A stretch of 37,607 nucleotides of DNA from Fibrobacter sp. (lineage in GTDB: Bacteria; Fibrobacterota; Fibrobacteria; Fibrobacterales; Fibrobacteraceae): positions 1 through 37,607 of the forward strand of contig NZ_JAFZKX010000032.1 in assembly GCF_017551775.1 (NCBI RefSeq), given 5' to 3'. Positions 1,373-7,845 of this stretch are shown here, in pieces. The notes below the pieces were generated by a model, which ran no database searches, had not been told where the DNA came from, and saw only the letters and a list, made by a program, of their open reading frames with translations. The stretch's first letter is position 1; each line of letters starts with the position of its first letter. The position numbers and the translations under genes were made by a program.

Positions 1373-2350
1373 CTAGAATATCGGCGTCTTGCTTTTTTCG
1401 CCGGCGATTTCGCGGACGAGTTTCGGCACGAGGTAGCCGGGCAGGCGCTTGCGGATTTCGGCAATAAGCGAGAGCGCTGTTTCGTCGCTGGCCTCGAAGT
1501 GCGCGACTCCGTTCGCATGGTCCAGCTGGTGCAGGTAGTAGGGGAGGACTCCCTGCATGAACAACCTGCGGCTCAGGGATTCCAGCGTTTTCGCGTTGTC
1601 GTTTACGCCCTTCAATAGCACGCTCTGGTTCAAAAGCGTCCAGCCGGAAAATTTAAGTTGTCCGAAAACGACCTGCGATTCTTCGTCGAGTTCGTCCGGG
1701 TGGTCCACGTGCGATACGAGCACGCATTCGAAGCGTGCGGACAGTTCTCGCAAGAGTTCGAAGTGCTGCATTACGAGGTCGGGCCGCATTACGGGGAGCC
1801 TCGTGTGGATGCGGAGCGTGGTGACCGAGCCGTGCATGGCGATAGCTTCCACGAGGTCGCGGAACTTCCCTGGACTTAGGGTGAGCGGGTCGCCGCCCGA
1901 AAGGATTACTTCCCAGATATCGCTATGCGTGTCGAGCCAGTCGCTTACCTGTTTGGCCACGTCGGGATTGCTCTGGAAGGGATAGTTCTTGCGGAAACAG
2001 AAGCGGCAACGGGCACCGCAGGTTGCGGTCGAGACAATCAGCGCCCGTCGGTCGTACTTCTGGATGACGCAATCCGCCTTGCCCGCGGGCAGGTCACCCA
2101 CCGGGTCGTCTACGAATCCGGGAACGTTCGCGAGTTCGTCGCGGGTTGGCAAAATTTCGCGTAGCAGGGCTTCGGGCTCGCTGGCCTTCTTGATGAGGTC
2201 GGCGTAGTGCTTCGAGCAAAGGAAAGGAAACTTGGGGCTCAGGTCCAGTTTGTCGGGTGTGGCTGCGTTTGCGATGGCTTCCGCACATCCTGTGCCCAGA
2301 TACTCTAAAAATTCGGGAATTTGCGTGAAAACTTTTTCGGCGTCGTCCAT
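1373..2350 (-). CDS. epmB: EF-P beta-lysylation protein EpmB (lysine 2,3-aminomutase family)
   Basis: Radical-SAM, PLP-dependent lysine 2,3-aminomutase-like enzyme of 325 residues. In the EpmB branch it turns alpha-lysine into beta-lysine for attachment to elongation factor P. The radical-SAM cluster motif CxxxCxxC is at C111, C115 and C118 (CGARCRFCFRKNYPF), followed by ILSGGDPLTL. The C-terminal signature PYYLHQLDHANGVAHF is characteristic of EpmB. The protein is shorter than catabolic KamA (about 415 residues), consistent with EpmB. It is divergent from efp with only 41 bp between the start codons, so the enzyme and its substrate sit side by side. No EpmA (GenX) ligase gene is in the window. 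The ATG at 2350 has no Shine-Dalgarno, but a TAAATTTA box lies 8 nt upstream. Confidence 0.93.
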   Translation of the reverse strand: MDDAEKVFTQIPEFLEYLGTGCAEAIANAATPDKLDLSPKFPFLCSKHYADLIKKASEPEALLREILPTRDELANVPGFVDDPVGDLPAGKADCVIQKYDRRALIVSTATCGARCRFCFRKNYPFQSNPDVAKQVSDWLDTHSDIWEVILSGGDPLTLSPGKFRDLVEAIAMHGSVTTLRIHTRLPVMRPDLVMQHFELLRELSARFECVLVSHVDHPDELDEESQVVFGQLKFSGWTLLNQSVLLKGVNDNAKTLESLSRRLFMQGVLPYYLHQLDHANGVAHFEASDETALSLIAEIRKRLPGYLVPKLVREIAGEKSKTPIF

Positions 2351-2358
2351 TATATTGC

Positions 2359-2366
2359 TAAATTTA
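2359..2366. promoter_or_regulatory. Shared palindromic TAAATTTA box between epmB and efp
   Basis: The 41-bp divergent spacer holds one self-complementary TAAATTTA. Read leftward it ends 8 nt before the epmB ATG; read rightward it is 25 nt before the efp ATG, which also has an AGAGGA ribosome site. It fits the TAnnTTT(G) -7 element known from Bacteroidetes promoters and could serve both directions. That it is a promoter is inferred. Confidence 0.4.
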
Positions 2367-2391
2367 GAATCAAAATCAACAAGAGGATAAT

Positions 2392-2976
2392 ATGGGTACT
2401 GTAAGCACCAACGAATTCCGCAAGAAACTCAAGATTATGGTTGACGGTCAGCCGTACGAAATCATCGAAAACCAGTTCGTGAAGCCGGGTAAGGGCCAGG
2501 CCTTTAACCGCGTTCGCATCAAGAACCTGGTGACCGGCCGTACGCTCGAACGTACCTGGAAGAGCGGTGACACTGTCGAAGAAGCCGACGTGACCTACAC
2601 CGAAATGACTTACCTTTACAACGACGGTTCTACCTGGTACTTCCTGGACAACACCACTCAGGAAACCATGGAAATCTCCAAGGAAGCTCTCAATGGCTGC
2701 GAAGTCTGGCTCCTTGACGGCGCTACCGTCGAAGTGACCTGGTGGAAGGACCCGAAGACGGGCTCTACCCTCCCGATCGAAGTTATCCCGCCGACCTTCG
2801 TCGACCTCATGATCGTTGAAGCTCCTCCGGCAGTTCAGGGCAACACCAGCGGTAACGTGATGCGCGAAGCCATCCTCGAAACCGGCGCCAAGGTGATGAT
2901 CCCGCTGTTCATCGAGAACAACACCAAGATCCGCGTGGATACCCGCGACGGTTCTTACCTCGAACGCGCAAAATAA
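2392..2976 (+). CDS. efp: Translation elongation factor P
   Basis: EF-P binds next to the ribosomal P site and relieves stalling at polyproline stretches. At 194 residues it is the usual family length, with an N-terminal KOW-like domain and two OB-fold domains, ending in the conserved IRVDTRDGSYLERAK. The loop that carries the modified lysine reads FVKPGKGQAF with K34 at exactly the position lysylated in E. coli EF-P. This agrees with the divergently transcribed epmB next door and argues for the beta-lysine route rather than rhamnosylated Arg32 or the Bacillus 5-aminopentanol type. The start has an AGAGGA Shine-Dalgarno. Two hairpins downstream (3036-3059, 3126-3151) can end the transcript. 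Confidence 0.97.
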   Translation: MGTVSTNEFRKKLKIMVDGQPYEIIENQFVKPGKGQAFNRVRIKNLVTGRTLERTWKSGDTVEEADVTYTEMTYLYNDGSTWYFLDNTTQETMEISKEALNGCEVWLLDGATVEVTWWKDPKTGSTLPIEVIPPTFVDLMIVEAPPAVQGNTSGNVMREAILETGAKVMIPLFIENNTKIRVDTRDGSYLERAK

Positions 2977-3035
2977 GACCGCTCGTTCGTCGTTTCGGGT
3001 GCGGAACCTCCGGTTCCTCACTCGCTCTCGCAACC

Positions 3036-3151: not shown

Positions 3152-3261
3152 GACGCCTACGGTGTCCGCTCTTGCGTTCGGTCATATCGGCAAACAAGTT
3201 TGCCGCCGCGACTCTCACTTGAGGGCTTTTCTTATATTTTATGCAGGTAATAGGAGGAAAC

Positions 3262-4155
3262 ATGATGCTTTTTCGGTGTCATCCTGGAAGGAGCCGTAGG
3301 CGACTGATAGGATCCATGGCGTTTCTTTGTGCCGCGATGTTTGTCGCTTGCGGTGACGACGACGGCGATTTCGCGACTCGTCCTTCGGACGGTTCGTCTT
3401 CGAGCGTGTGCAAGGACTGCGATGACGAGTCTTCGTCCAGCGTCACACCGAAGTCGAGCGATAGCGAGACAAGCGTGTCCAGTAGCAGCACTAAGTCTAG
3501 CAGCAGCTCGGAATATATAAGGGTGCCATGTAATGTCGAGACAGATGAGAACTGCTTTAAGGATGACCGCGATGGTCAGACATACAAGACTGTGAAGATT
3601 GGCGATCAGGTATGGATGGCGGAGAACCTTAACTACGAAACGGATAATAGTTTCTGCTACAACGATTCTGCCGAGTATTGTGAAAAGTACGGGCGCCTTT
3701 ACACATGGGCCGCGGCGATGGACAGTGCGGGCATATGGAGCACGAACGGCAAGGGCTGCGGCTATGGCAAGAAATGTGATGTCGATTCGACGGACTCAGC
3801 GACCTTGGTGCGTGGAGTTTGTCCTGAAGGTTGGCATTTGCCTTCGCATACGGAATGGTATATCCTGTTCATGGCGGTGCGCGCATCGATCGCCGGAACA
3901 GAACTCAAGTCCACGTCCGGTTGGTACGACAATGGCAACGGCACGGATGATTTCGGGTTCTCGGCGCTCCCTGCTGGCCTCATGCATGGTGTTGGGCATT
4001 ACTACGACGAGGGCGACTTCGCCTACTTCTGGAGTTCTACAGAGGGCGGTGGCGACTACGCGTACGACATGTACTTGTTCAGCGACTACAACGATGCGCG
4101 CCTGGGCGACGACTACAAGGACCACGGATTTTCAGTCCGTTGCCTCAAGGACTAA
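3262..4155 (+). CDS. FISUMP-domain lipoprotein 1
   Basis: Predicted exported lipoprotein of about 297 residues. The start is put at ATG 3262 (or 3265) because AGGAGG lies at 3252-3257; the upstream in-frame ATG 3241 would sit before that site. A basic n-region and a hydrophobic stretch lead to the lipobox FVAC with Cys30, then an Asp/Ser-rich linker to about residue 95. The rest is a FISUMP domain (TIGR02145, Fib_succ_major) starting DGQTYKTVKIGDQVWMAENL and continuing with YTWAAAMDSAG, GWHLPSHTEW and the terminal FSVRCLKD. FISUMP proteins are a large surface or secreted family in Fibrobacter whose molecular role is not settled. Residues about 6-19 of the signal peptide are encoded by a copy of the dispersed repeat. 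The next gene is a second FISUMP lipoprotein 14 nt downstream. Confidence 0.88.
   Translation: MMLFRCHPGRSRRRLIGSMAFLCAAMFVACGDDDGDFATRPSDGSSSSVCKDCDDESSSSVTPKSSDSETSVSSSSTKSSSSSEYIRVPCNVETDENCFKDDRDGQTYKTVKIGDQVWMAENLNYETDNSFCYNDSAEYCEKYGRLYTWAAAMDSAGIWSTNGKGCGYGKKCDVDSTDSATLVRGVCPEGWHLPSHTEWYILFMAVRASIAGTELKSTSGWYDNGNGTDDFGFSALPAGLMHGVGHYYDEGDFAYFWSSTEGGGDYAYDMYLFSDYNDARLGDDYKDHGFSVRCLKD
3276..3318 (+). repeat. Dispersed repeat copy inside the signal-peptide coding region
   Basis: GTGTCATCCTGGA...GATAGGATCCATGG, the same ends as the intergenic copy at 3081-3116, but read in frame here as RCHPGRSRRRLIGSM just before the hydrophobic core of the FISUMP lipoprotein signal peptide. Confidence 0.6.
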
Positions 4156-4169
4156 TTTTAGGAGGAAGT

Positions 4170-5666
4170 ATGTTTAGAATGTCATTGCACAAGTGCATGA
4201 CTCGGCGGCTCAGCCATGCCAGTCTTGTAAACAGACTGTCGCGGCATTCGCCTTGTATGTCATTGCGAGGGCGAGTAACGACCGCGGCAATTTCTTGCCT
4301 GCTTTTCCTCGTAGCCTGTGGCGGCGACAGCAGCTCATCTAAGGGTACTGAACCTGCAGAAGTGTCTGACATTATCGTGGATTCGTTTGATGATCTGCTG
4401 GTTTGTAGCGACAAACGTGAAGGCGCAACAGCTTATGTGAAGGACAAAAAGACCGCCTACGTCTGCAAAAACGGCGATTGGGTTGTTGATGATGACGAAT
4501 TTTCTTCATCTAGCGTAATGGACGAAACATCCTCCTCTTCACGCCATTGCGAGGACTGCAAGGACGAAACAACCTCTAGCAGCAGTACAAACAAGACGAA
4601 TTCTTCCTCGAGTGCTGTCAAAGGCTCCAGCAGTAGCATTGACTCGGCGAAATCCTCCTCTTCCGTCACTCTGAGTTCTTCGTCCTCTGACATAAACGTC
4701 ATCGAGGAATCTGGTAGTAGCGCAGATTCGTTGAATTTATTCTCCAGCGATAGCGGGGAATCCAGCAGTAGCTCTTCCAGCAGCAGTGACAATCTTCTTC
4801 CGCCGCCACTCAGCTCTTCCTCCGTCATTCCGAGCAGTAGCGAAGAATCCAGTAGCAGTATAGACTTGGTGCAATCCTCTTCCAGCGTCAAGGATGAATC
4901 CTCCTCTTCCGTCATTCCTGGCACCGACCCGGAATCTAGCAGTTCGTCTGTTGAGCTGAGTTGTTCTGCGCTTTTAGAAGGAATAGACGGCTGGAGCTGG
5001 GATATTCCTAAGAAATGTCGCTTCAATTTGGATATAACCTACGGCATCATGACAGACACCCGCGACGGACAAACCTACAAGACCGTAAAGATTGGCGACC
5101 AGACGTGGATGGCCGAAAACCTGAACTATGCCGATAGCGCGAAGACCCCGAGCCTGTTGAAGCGCAGCTGGTGCTTTAACAAAGTTGCTGCCAATTGCGC
5201 CGTGGCAGGACGCCTTTACACCTGGGCGGCGGCGATTGATTCGGTGAGGCTCGCAACCGATGCAGAAAACCCGCAGGACTGCGGTTACGGCAAGACCTGT
5301 ACGCTCCCGGCAACGGTCCAGGGCATTTGCCCCGACGGCTGGCACTTACCGACTCGAGAGGAATGGAACACCTTGTTTACCGAGGTGGGCGGAGAATCGA
5401 CAGCAGGCGAAATTCTCAAGTCGCAGACGGGCTGGTATGACAACGGCAACGGTACGGATGGCGTGGGCTTTTCTGCGTTGCCTGCCGGCCGCAGGTACAA
5501 TGGCAAATTCGACCAAGATGGTGAATGCGCCAACTTCTGGGGTGCCTTTGAGTTCAGTAGCGGCAACAGCGCATACCGCTTGCACTTGTACTACAACCTC
5601 AAGGACTATCGCATGCTCAACGACAACAAGCGCGACGGGGCTTCAGTTCGTTGTCTAAAGGACTAG
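4170..5666 (+). CDS. FISUMP-domain lipoprotein 2 with long serine-rich linker
   Basis: Predicted exported lipoprotein of about 498 residues, paralogous to its upstream neighbour. ATG 4170 is chosen because an AGGAGG site lies at 4160-4165. The n-region is unusually long and basic (about 33 residues) and partly made of dispersed-repeat sequence; then comes a hydrophobic core and the lipobox LVAC with Cys50. A region near residues 70-105 (LLVCSDKREGATAYVKDKKT) resembles a short module before the linker. Residues about 110-270 are a low-complexity linker with many Ser runs. The FISUMP domain starts near residue 297 (DGQTYKTVKIGDQTWMAENL) and ends SVRCLKD. The layout suits a cell-surface protein holding its domain away from the membrane; the ligand is unknown. 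It probably forms an operon with the gene 14 nt upstream. Confidence 0.88.
   Translation: MFRMSLHKCMTRRLSHASLVNRLSRHSPCMSLRGRVTTAAISCLLFLVACGGDSSSSKGTEPAEVSDIIVDSFDDLLVCSDKREGATAYVKDKKTAYVCKNGDWVVDDDEFSSSSVMDETSSSSRHCEDCKDETTSSSSTNKTNSSSSAVKGSSSSIDSAKSSSSVTLSSSSSDINVIEESGSSADSLNLFSSDSGESSSSSSSSSDNLLPPPLSSSSVIPSSSEESSSSIDLVQSSSSVKDESSSSVIPGTDPESSSSSVELSCSALLEGIDGWSWDIPKKCRFNLDITYGIMTDTRDGQTYKTVKIGDQTWMAENLNYADSAKTPSLLKRSWCFNKVAANCAVAGRLYTWAAAIDSVRLATDAENPQDCGYGKTCTLPATVQGICPDGWHLPTREEWNTLFTEVGGESTAGEILKSQTGWYDNGNGTDGVGFSALPAGRRYNGKFDQDGECANFWGAFEFSSGNSAYRLHLYYNLKDYRMLNDNKRDGASVRCLKD
4178..4293 (+). repeat. Palindromic repeat-like sequences in the n-region of FISUMP lipoprotein 2
   Basis: Two units can be seen. 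The first is GTCATTGCACAAGTGCATGAC with short stems (TGCAC/GTGCA and CAGTCT/AGACTG). The second, at 4257-4293, begins ATGTCATTGCGAGGGCG and ends GACCGCGGCAATTT, the form of a widespread GTCATTGCGAGG...CGCGGCAAT repeat. Both are read in frame as the basic n-region of the signal peptide. Confidence 0.5.
4500..4945 (+). repeat. Low-complexity Ser-codon tracts (protein linker)
   Basis: Irregular runs of TCC, TCT, AGC and AGT codons alternating with Asp, Glu, Val and Ile codons encode the linker of FISUMP lipoprotein 2. Mixed Ser codons from both codon families are used, which suggests selection for serine rather than recent slippage of one repeat unit. Confidence 0.7.
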
Positions 5667-5701
5667 CTACATTTAATGCAACGATTCGTGTGATGAAGTG
5701 A

Positions 5702-5805
5702 TGGATCCTTCGACGCGATGCCTAGCGGCATCTTGCTCCTACGAACCTAACTCAACTAAGGCAACAGAGTTGCCAAGTTTCGTATAGCTCAGGATGACAC
5801 GACCG
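5702..5805 (-). repeat. Inverted-orientation dispersed repeat element
   Basis: On the reverse strand the element reads GTGTCATCCTGAGC...GAAGGATCCAT, the same type of ends as at 3081 and 3276, with a longer centre containing short stems (GGCAACTC/GAGTTGCC is readable near 5760-5775). It lies between FISUMP lipoprotein 2 and the decayed gene fragment at 5811. Confidence 0.5.
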
Positions 5806-5810
5806 TTCTG

Positions 5811-5888
5811 AAGACCCGAGCGACTTCGTCCGGGTTGTCGCTTTTTAGCCAGGTGAACGTCTCTGTGCCGCGCTCGCTCCTGCCGAAG
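5811..5888 (-). pseudogene. Decayed 3' fragment of a second copy of the TIM-barrel gene
   Basis: The reverse strand reads RGTETFTWLKSDNPDEVARV, nearly the same as the C-terminus of the intact gene at 6740-7714 (RGTETLSWLKSDNPDEVARV). A 23-bp stretch is identical (5820-5842 and 6768-6790), and codon-level similarity extends over about 78 bp. There is no start codon, and the frame runs on into the neighbouring dispersed repeat, ending TVVSS-stop. The fragment and the intact 3' end flank the outer-membrane gene 5894-6724 as direct repeats, which suggests a duplication or insertion event. Function is not expected. Confidence 0.8.
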
Positions 5889-5893
5889 TTTTT

Positions 5894-6724
5894 TTAACGA
5901 GCTATCCTGATGGTAAAATCGAAGTTGTGGCTTGTGGTGATGAGGTTGTCGTCATCATCAGAATCATATTTGCCGAAGGCGTAACTGAACACAAAGCCGG
6001 TTTTCCATCGCCTGTTGAACCAGTAGTCGTAACCCACTTCAATACGGGCAAAGGTGTTGCTGAAACTATCTATAGAGGGATTGTTAAAGTAGTAGGTGTA
6101 ATCAATTAAGTAATTTCCTTTCTTGTGTTCTTGTACCTTTTGGACGGCGCCACCAACGCAAAGTCCTAAATATAGGCCGTAAAGATTGCTTTCTTTGTCC
6201 TGGAATGGATAAATTTCTGCACCGAGCCCTAATAGGCTCCTCATGCTCATTACGTCAGCATTTGTTTCTTTCTTATCGTTGGAGGAACTTTCGAAGGTCC
6301 CATATCCGATGCCGAGTCCAAAAGCTCCATAAATAGAGATTCTGTTGGCGAAGTAATAACCGAACCGGTTTTCGTTGTAAGGAAGAGATTGTCCGCTAAA
6401 TGTATGAATTGTTTTTTTGTTATGCCAATCGTTTTCGGTATTGCTTAATGATGCGATGCCGATTGAGAATCCTATTGAAAAATAGAATCCCCGGCGGGCG
6501 TGGTAGTTGATGTCATTTGTTAACTGTTTGAGTTGTTCTGAGGTTAATGCCATGCTGCTGTCGGCGACGGCTTCAGGCTGCTCCTGTTTGTCTTTCCAAA
6601 TAAAAGTTGAATCTTTAATCCCTTTGGCGGCTCGATCATTTTCGACATACGCGCCCATATCCCAGGCATATGCATGAGCTGCAAAAATAAGTGCTAAAAA
6701 CGAGAGGGAAAAAAACTTCTTCAT
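5894..6724 (-). CDS. Predicted outer-membrane beta-barrel protein
   Basis: 276 residues, not assigned to a named family. It begins MKKFFSLSFLALIFAAHAYA, a clear signal peptide with an AYA cleavage site before Trp21. After about 70 residues of mature N-terminus there are many short alternating aromatic/hydrophobic strands rich in Tyr, Phe and Gly (FYFSIGFSIGIASL, YYFANRISIYGAFGLGIGYG, GYDYWFNRRWKTGFVFSY), ending DFTIRIAR. This pattern fits a small beta-barrel of the OmpA/OmpW size class or a PorT-like surface protein. GGGGAAA precedes ATG 6724. The coding region is more AT-rich than its neighbours and lies between direct repeats of the 3' end of the next gene, so it may be a later arrival at this site. 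Confidence 0.7.
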   Translation of the reverse strand: MKKFFSLSFLALIFAAHAYAWDMGAYVENDRAAKGIKDSTFIWKDKQEQPEAVADSSMALTSEQLKQLTNDINYHARRGFYFSIGFSIGIASLSNTENDWHNKKTIHTFSGQSLPYNENRFGYYFANRISIYGAFGLGIGYGTFESSSNDKKETNADVMSMRSLLGLGAEIYPFQDKESNLYGLYLGLCVGGAVQKVQEHKKGNYLIDYTYYFNNPSIDSFSNTFARIEVGYDYWFNRRWKTGFVFSYAFGKYDSDDDDNLITTSHNFDFTIRIAR

Positions 6725-6739
6725 CAGTATTTCCCCTTT

Positions 6740-7714
6740 TTATTTTATTGCTTCCCTAAATACCCTTGCGACTTCGTCCGGGTTGTCGCTCTTGAGCCAA
6801 CTGAGCGTTTCGGTGCCGCGGTAGCTCCAGGCGAAGATGTTGTCGATGCCGGCCTGGCGACTTTCCTCGACAGCGATGGCGAGGTCGTTCTCGCGGCCCG
6901 CTTCTATCTGGTAGGCCTTCACCCACATTTGCGTCGCCTTCCCGTAGCGTGCGGCGACATCCGTGAGTTTGCGTGCCGTTTCCGCGTATTTTTCTCGGAC
7001 CCATTCCTCGGTGGCGCCGCGTTCCCAGTACGGGTCGGACGCCACTTCGTCTACGCTTGCAAGGCCAGCGACTTTGCCCCAGTCGTCGAGACCTGCGGGG
7101 AACCACGGCGGCAGCATGCACACGCAGTTCCGCTTCCCGCGGGCGTGCACGTCTTCTGTCATTTCTTTCAAGAAGTCGATGAGGCTGTCCTCGCGGAATT
7201 TCTGCACGTCTTCAGTGAGTTCCGCGGGCATCTCGTAGCCGAACCTGGCGCGGAATTTTTCGCGGCACTTTTCGCACCGGCAGCTCCAGTTTTGGAGCCC
7301 GCCCTTCTCGAAATAAAAGTGCGGCTCGTCCCAGAAAATCGTGTCGACCTTCGTCGCGCAGACGGATTCAATCCAGCGGTGCATGTAGGCTCGGAATTCG
7401 GGATGGTTCGGGCAGGCGGCGACTTTCGGCTTGCCGTCGAGCGCCACCTGGCACAAGTCGTGGTTCCTTGCCGATAGTTCGGAATATGCTTCACCGCCAA
7501 AGACGCGGCCCACTCCCCAAGGGTTCACGTAGACTTTCAGGCCCATGTCTGCAGACGCATCCACGATTTCTTTCATGGTGCCGTAATAGTACTGCTGGTC
7601 TTCTTCGCTCCATGTGTGGAGTACTGCGTTGAAGCCAGCCGCCTTGATGTCGGCCATGTCGGCCAAAACGTGCTTGGGCGTGCGCACGCCAAAGTAACTT
7701 ACACCCTTAATCAT
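6740..7714 (-). CDS. Predicted TIM-barrel protein, glycoside-hydrolase-like
   Basis: 324 residues without a signal peptide, so probably cytoplasmic. The order of motifs fits a (beta/alpha)8 barrel: MIKGVSYFGVRT (strand 1), AAGFNAVLHTWSE, MGLKVYVNPWGVGRVFGGEA, DTIFWDEPHFYF, NCVCMLPPWFPAG, DEVASDPYWERG, KATQMWVKAYQIEAG and NIFAWSYRGTETLSWLKS. Acidic residues at the ends of strands (WDEPHF) could be catalytic, as in many glycosidases. A CRCEKC motif (residues about 145-150) might bind metal. I do not recognise the exact family and infer no substrate. There is no Shine-Dalgarno, but a TAAATTTT box lies 4 nt before the ATG. A decayed copy of its 3' end lies at 5811-5888. Confidence 0.55.
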   Translation of the reverse strand: MIKGVSYFGVRTPKHVLADMADIKAAGFNAVLHTWSEEDQQYYYGTMKEIVDASADMGLKVYVNPWGVGRVFGGEAYSELSARNHDLCQVALDGKPKVAACPNHPEFRAYMHRWIESVCATKVDTIFWDEPHFYFEKGGLQNWSCRCEKCREKFRARFGYEMPAELTEDVQKFREDSLIDFLKEMTEDVHARGKRNCVCMLPPWFPAGLDDWGKVAGLASVDEVASDPYWERGATEEWVREKYAETARKLTDVAARYGKATQMWVKAYQIEAGRENDLAIAVEESRQAGIDNIFAWSYRGTETLSWLKSDNPDEVARVFREAIK

Positions 7715-7736
7715 GCGTAAAATTTAATATTTAAGT

Positions 7737-7845
7737 TGTTAGTTCCTAGTTACTAGTTTCTAGAATTTCTGGTATCAAGAAGCTTCTTGTAATCGGAAAT
7801 ACTAGTAACTAAAAACTTAGAACTAGGAACTCAGGACTGGGAACT
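7737..7845. repeat. Large imperfect palindrome (about 110 bp)
   Basis: Outer arms share GTTCCTAG and AGTTACTAGT on the left with their complements ACTAGTAACT and CTAGGAAC on the right. The centre, CAAGAAGCTTCTTG at 7776-7789, is itself a perfect 14-bp palindrome. The element fills the spacer between two reverse-strand genes and could fold into a long hairpin acting as a terminator or as a dispersed REP-like element. There is no U tract. Confidence 0.6.

Follow-up and report, generated by a model that had tools for sequence, protein, structure and literature searches.

Genes and features of the locus

The window, by which we mean the whole stretch of 37,607 nucleotides of a Fibrobacter sp. contig analysed here, carries a conserved gene labelled 'TIM-barrel' (the TIM gene), a putative outer-membrane beta-barrel gene behind it and, behind that, the 3′ end of the TIM gene once more, as a second copy (the remnant). 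The features are listed below, with the basis of each in brackets.

1373-3033, reverse strand: conserved right border of the variable interval, formed by g2350 and the radical-SAM-like g1373 (synteny).
3241-4155, forward strand: second FISUMP gene of the variable interval (domain search, synteny).
4140-5666, forward strand: convergent gene for a secreted FISUMP-domain (Fib_succ_major) protein, now in the place of an esterase gene (domain search, synteny).
5678-5701, forward strand: last eight codons (ATIRVMK-stop) of a lost convergent CE6-type acetylesterase gene (comparison with G063 and G009).
5702-5807, no strand: retained ancestral intergenic region between the TIM and esterase genes, with part of a dispersed intergenic repeat in it (comparison with G063 and G009).
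5790-5807: stop codon of the remnant and flank, continuing as in G063 and G009 (comparison).
5808-5893, reverse strand: distal copy of a direct repeat, probably the native TIM 3′ end in displaced position, 'type B' (...VARVFRTVVSS-stop), in frame (repeat search, comparisons).
5820-5842, no strand: 23-nt stretch identical to 6768-6790, with the inverted repeat GCGAC..GTCGC inside, part of a 3′-end hairpin (sequence).
5894-6724, reverse strand: putative outer-membrane beta-barrel gene, 276 aa, with an N-terminal signal-like stretch and 8 predicted strands (model, Foldseek, family search).
6716-6755, reverse strand: type C end, leader and first barrel codons, a near letter-for-letter match to G064 and G070 (comparison).
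6740-7714, reverse strand: intact TIM gene, 324 aa, a conserved single-copy anchor with a 'type C' 3′ end (REAIK-stop) (window ORFs, 80-genome search).
6756-6841, reverse strand: proximal copy of the direct repeat, the 3′ part of the intact TIM gene (repeat search, genome search).

The TIM gene product gave no match in Pfam or NCBIfam and no useful one in the PDB, and its model, an alternation of strands and helices, is of low confidence. With no family match and a predicted fold at a pLDDT of 44.7, which is too low, the 'TIM barrel' label of the initial annotation is plausible but unproven. The outer-membrane label of the barrel gene is supported by the model of its product, which has 8 strands (pLDDT 66.7), by Foldseek matches to outer-membrane beta-barrels, and by a weak, sub-threshold profile match to the autotransporter domain. 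No useful solved relatives of either protein were found.

The TIM gene and the genes upstream of it keep their synteny in nearly all of the fetched loci, and mosaic segments are found inside the gene. Mosaicism at its 3′ end exceeds that of the other segments no more than marginally, so that recombination appears to be spread over the gene. Between 7090 and 7390 the identity of the window's TIM gene to that of G064 is 81-86%, with nearby bins mostly at 93-99%, and this stretch is most simply read as a recombinant patch. Upstream of the gene, at 7734-7838, lie overlapping imperfect palindromes rich in TAGTTACTAGTT; in G061, similar TAGTTACTAGTT runs follow the gene. G007 has two complete TIM loci, on separate contigs (C64 and C51; L070 and L071) and with differing flanks, suggesting a mixed assembly or bin.

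The two repeat copies (5808-5893 and 6756-6841) were found by a repeat search of the window to be 80% identical over 86 nt. Their start-to-start spacing is 948, and their longest identical run is the 23 nt at 5820-5842 and 6768-6790. Chance does not account for the match (E = 3.8e-16 genome-wide); the best ungapped 80-nt match in the interval reaches 81%, and 60 shuffles reach at most 47.5%. The direct repeats with a 23-bp identical stretch that had been described on either side of the barrel gene are thus confirmed. The distal copy had been described as a decayed one of 78 bp; the copy is real, but it is longer (86 nt) and reads, in the TIM frame, SERGTETFTWLKSDNPDEVARVFRTVVSS and then a stop (TGA), free of frameshifts and internal stops, and 'decayed' is a generous word for it. 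Nor is the fragment spread over many unrelated loci, the finding that had been named as counter-evidence. A dispersed repeat was rejected, as there are only two significant places genome-wide: the sole match to the remnant besides itself is the 3′ end of the genome's own TIM gene, and the rest are of 16-24 nt with E ≥ 0.05. Matches in relatives likewise sit at the TIM gene 3′ end, the exceptions being the remnant of G070 and one 26-nt match in G069.

Kinship of the remnant

The last dozen codons of the TIM gene and the flank behind them differ by type between species. The intact gene of the window ends in REAIK-TAA-AAAGGGGAAATACTG-ATGAAGAA, as in G064 and G070. The remnant ends in ...VARVFRTVVSS-TGA-GC and runs into a flank of the G063/G009 type (RTAVSS), with a stop codon common to these two genomes. 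When 77 Fibrobacter orthologues of the TIM gene were ranked by identity to the remnant, the window's own gene came only 42nd; over the aligned columns of the remnant, in a short tail comparison of about 80 nt, identity is 89% for G063, 88% for G009 and 75% for the window's own gene.

In G063 and G009 the same gene end faces a convergent CE6-type acetylesterase gene with no barrel gene in between, and these loci provide the empty site that the initial annotation had proposed to look for in relatives. The esterase, which has a SASA/CE6 domain and a CBM6, ends in ATIRVMR or TVVRVMK, and in the window an esterase C-terminus sits behind the old flank, in the order expected from G009. Elsewhere in the window's genome the best remaining esterase homologue, on another contig, is a paralogue at 61%. 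F. succinogenes S85 is known to have CE6-CBM6 esterases with a basic module at the C-terminus (PMC3079729).

Because the remnant is closest to G063 and G009 and is followed by their stop codon, flank and esterase end, the fragment is best read as the resident gene end and intergenic region pushed outward. The distal copy had been assumed to be the derived one and the end of the gene the original; the evidence points the other way, the fragment being the old native end and the end that the gene has today having arrived with the barrel module. The divergence of the fragment is also of note. From G063 it diverges to a degree that is no greater than that of functional genes, which is odd for a neutral fossil, unless it was constrained or refreshed by transfer. 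As a separate observation, positions 5735-5800 hold the dispersed intergenic repeat (about 50 bp, containing ACGAACCTAACTCAACTAAGGCAACAGAGTTGCCAAG), of which the genome has at least five further partial copies; it lies on the opposite side of the GCAAGATGCCGCTAGGCATCGCG block in G063 and, inverted, directly behind the TIM stop in G072.

The nearest relatives of the window are MAGs of Fibrobacter succinogenes, RUG10752 (G070) and RUG11683. In a tree of two upstream genes the window groups with G064 and G070 in a single clade, fully supported, with G003 next and then G063/G019 with G007a/G043, all with full or nearly full support. The esterase gene adjoins the TIM gene in G003, G063, G043 and G010, and from the place of these relatives on the tree the barrel-first arrangement is derived in the window's clade. 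The barrel-to-remnant junction of the window is also found in G070, identical from the last codons of the barrel gene to 26 nt into the remnant, and the remnant there ends after 26-28 nt.

Gene turnover and scars in other genomes

Of the 80 Fibrobacter genomes, 22 have members of the barrel family, almost always at the TIM locus. G064 has five barrel genes and no remnant, and both it and G070 have an additional first barrel that is absent from the window. Behind the TIM gene of RUG11683 (L128, 6439-10447) stand five different barrel genes in tandem, and arrays of variable length recur in G018, G059, G069 and others.

On a tree of 58 genomes, the first neighbour of the TIM gene changed at least 21 times. 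The interval from the TIM gene to the g2350/g1373 pair is 32 bp at its shortest and about 13 kb at its longest (G020), with 11.7 kb in G059; it contains barrel, FISUMP and esterase genes whose order differs between genomes. By these comparisons the TIM locus is a turnover hotspot, where genes have been swapped recurrently.

Scars of the same appearance were found elsewhere: two in G021 and one in G059, each directly behind a barrel gene and before a convergent FISUMP gene. The first G021 scar carries a different tail (NPGEIARVFKNALR-stop). The scars of these two genomes are closest to 'type D' tails (G002, G054 and G059), not to the end of G021's own gene, and all their matches across the 80 genomes are scars or TIM gene 3′ ends. 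They start at another codon, and have another tail, than the scar of the window and G070. A weaker scar, shorter and terminator-like, was found in G020. Together, the scars of the window and of G021/G059 point to the same kind of event in at least two lineages, at different codons and with different tails. Moreover, the TIM gene of G054 (L086) is chimeric, its body being like that of G022 and its last 100 nt and FISUMP neighbour like those of G002 and G079; here the gene end seems to have been exchanged together with the neighbour.

Probable displacement of the native 3′ end

In our judgement, 5808-5893 is probably the original 3′ end of the TIM gene, displaced rather than duplicated when a new 3′ end and barrel genes arrived. 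Before the event, a TIM gene with a type B tail would have faced a convergent CE6-type acetylesterase gene, as in G063 and G009 today. The incoming DNA, from a Fibrobacter, would have carried another allele of the 3′ part of the TIM gene (type C tail) together with one or more barrel genes. On one side, it may have recombined by homology within the TIM gene or in the genes before it; on the other, the joint would have formed with little homology, about 26 codons before the resident stop. The TIM gene would thereby have gained a new end and the barrels, while its old end, the intergenic region and the convergent neighbour were shifted outward. Later, FISUMP genes would have replaced the esterase gene, of which the last eight codons remain, and the window would have lost the first barrel of the array. 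The type C end looks to have been joined to the present barrel by this later deletion, at an AAGAAG microhomology at the barrel starts. In the closest relative, G064, a type C tail is followed by five barrels and the remnant is missing, so that this history needs a later loss there.

The repeat, its closer kinship to the gene ends of other species with their flank, the empty site, the esterase end, the separate scars of G021 and G059 and the chimeric gene end of G054 are observed. We infer from the products that one-sided homology (homology-facilitated illegitimate recombination) was the route, and likewise who the donor was and in which order the later losses came. The barrel-to-remnant junction was read in the window and in G070. 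A circular donor integrated by a single crossover, with a deletion afterwards, would leave the same arrangement.

A possible role of the 3′-end hairpin

The distal fragment might be a functional element under selection, either a terminator or an mRNA-stabilising hairpin, which we find possible but rather doubtful. This is compatible with displacement of the old end; as a full rival, it would mean that the similarity is mainly functional. At its 3′ coding end the TIM gene has an antisense hairpin, which is stronger where the neighbour is convergent (mean -17.4 vs -11.8 kcal/mol, p 1.5e-5), and of nine other TIM segments only one gave a difference (p 0.0026). With 10 phylogenetically independent pairs, the difference went in the same direction 7.6 times on average and in the opposite one 0.3 times (median p 0.016), with p values of 0.016-0.07 across energy cut-offs of -11 to -17, the cut-off having been picked after seeing the data. 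Given this post hoc choice, and since tails travel with their neighbours, the link between hairpin and convergence is suggestive only.

The scars of G021, G059 and G020 hold perfect or near-perfect hairpins. One of the G021 scars and the G059 scar have the perfect hairpin CCCGGGCGAAATCGCCCGGG, which among the 80 genomes is found at these loci only, and in G020 with one change; there the hairpin is followed by a run of eight T. The fold of the window scar, however, is unremarkable (z 0.12 and -1.25), with the barrel strand no better than shuffles, and a consensus terminator scan calls no terminator at it. Neither is there unusual synonymous conservation at the TIM 3′ end, nor would a function by itself account for an in-frame match that takes in the tail, stop codon and flank.

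The hairpin data lend support to the idea that the old 3′ end may have been kept because its hairpin ends or stabilises convergent transcripts. A more speculative extension, to which we give somewhat less credence than to a functional element as such, is that the 3′ coding end of the TIM gene doubles as the terminator of its convergent neighbour and that the displaced end was kept and improved as a stand-alone terminator, so that fossils of gene ends would mark and organise a locus of surface-protein cassettes.

Other explanations

The initial annotation had put forward two histories. The one in which recombination inserted the barrel gene is supported, and the empty site is found in G063 and G009. 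The other, a tandem duplication of the TIM gene with loss of most of one copy, the barrel gene being caught or inserted in between, would account for the direct-repeat geometry and for the remnant being intact in frame. A copy made from the resident gene, however, ought to be nearest to it, which the rank of that gene given above contradicts, and the distal copy has the tail type and flank of other species. Tandem full-length copies, which the initial annotation had likewise proposed to look for in relatives, were absent from the 80 genomes searched. We therefore regard tandem duplication as improbable; a transient merodiploid from single-crossover integration of a circular donor would mimic it and is a sub-case of displacement.

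Marginally less probable still is site-specific integration, with the 23-nt stretch and its GCGAC..GTCGC as attachment site and the barrel gene as cargo of a small integrative element. Elements of this kind do insert at a gene's 3′ end, restoring the gene and leaving a direct repeat behind, and the identical core does contain an inverted repeat, but this core is merely the conserved coding sequence for SDNPDEVA. The barrel gene stands alone between the repeats, and a Pfam search of it and the neighbouring genes gave no recombinase; no anti-phage defence families were found either. Moreover, there is no fixed crossover point, the window/G070 and G021/G059 scars starting at different codons, and the cargo varies by locus (barrels, FISUMP or esterase). 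Finally, although the relatives L127-L129 are MAGs, many other genomes are incomplete or multi-contig and G007 appears mixed, an assembly or binning chimera is very improbable, as the junction recurs in the independent MAG G070 (RUG10752) and analogous scars are found in G021 and G059.

Comparison with known systems

Integrative elements insert at gene 3′ ends, and a direct repeat of the gene end then flanks the inserted DNA. The TIM locus differs from these in having no recognised recombinase, no fixed crossover point and a variable cargo.

Displacement of the old end by incoming DNA has a closer counterpart in the type VI secretion (T6SS) loci of Vibrio cholerae, where the 3′ ends of effector genes and their immunity genes are displaced sequentially, as proposed through homology-facilitated illegitimate recombination (PMC5361080). 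Both cases show a homologous upstream anchor, a new 3′ end with a new downstream gene, and an old end orphaned downstream; both are repeated in arrays, and plain homologous replacement occurs at the same locus too. Unlike in V. cholerae, the anchor is enzyme-like and not a toxin, about 15-30 terminal codons remain, and the cargo consists of outer-membrane barrels, FISUMP proteins or an esterase, with no effector-immunity logic visible; for the proteins searched at the TIM locus, no toxin or immunity family was recognised. Rhs/CDI loci with orphan C-terminal tips are named there as well (PMC5361080). These share with the TIM locus a constant 5′ part, variable 3′ ends and orphaned 3′ ends downstream; at the TIM locus, by contrast, no toxin was recognised, and what is exchanged is a short terminal helix that probably has no effect on activity. 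As described in PMC3240628, homology-facilitated illegitimate recombination integrates linear foreign DNA through one homologous and one non-homologous joint. It is known there from experiments in other bacteria, while at the TIM locus the product alone is seen.

The link between hairpin and convergent neighbour would offer a simple, testable case of coding ends serving as terminators, and the scars are a record from which the turnover of surface genes in rumen fibre degraders can be read. Toxin loci are the main place where displaced 3′ ends are known, and there their exchange is thought to be driven by competition. The TIM locus is a case of displaced 3′ ends outside toxin systems, and repeated scars at an enzyme-like gene beside outer-membrane, FISUMP and esterase genes suggest that they can arise as a side effect of exchanging cassettes, with any conserved gene as the anchor.
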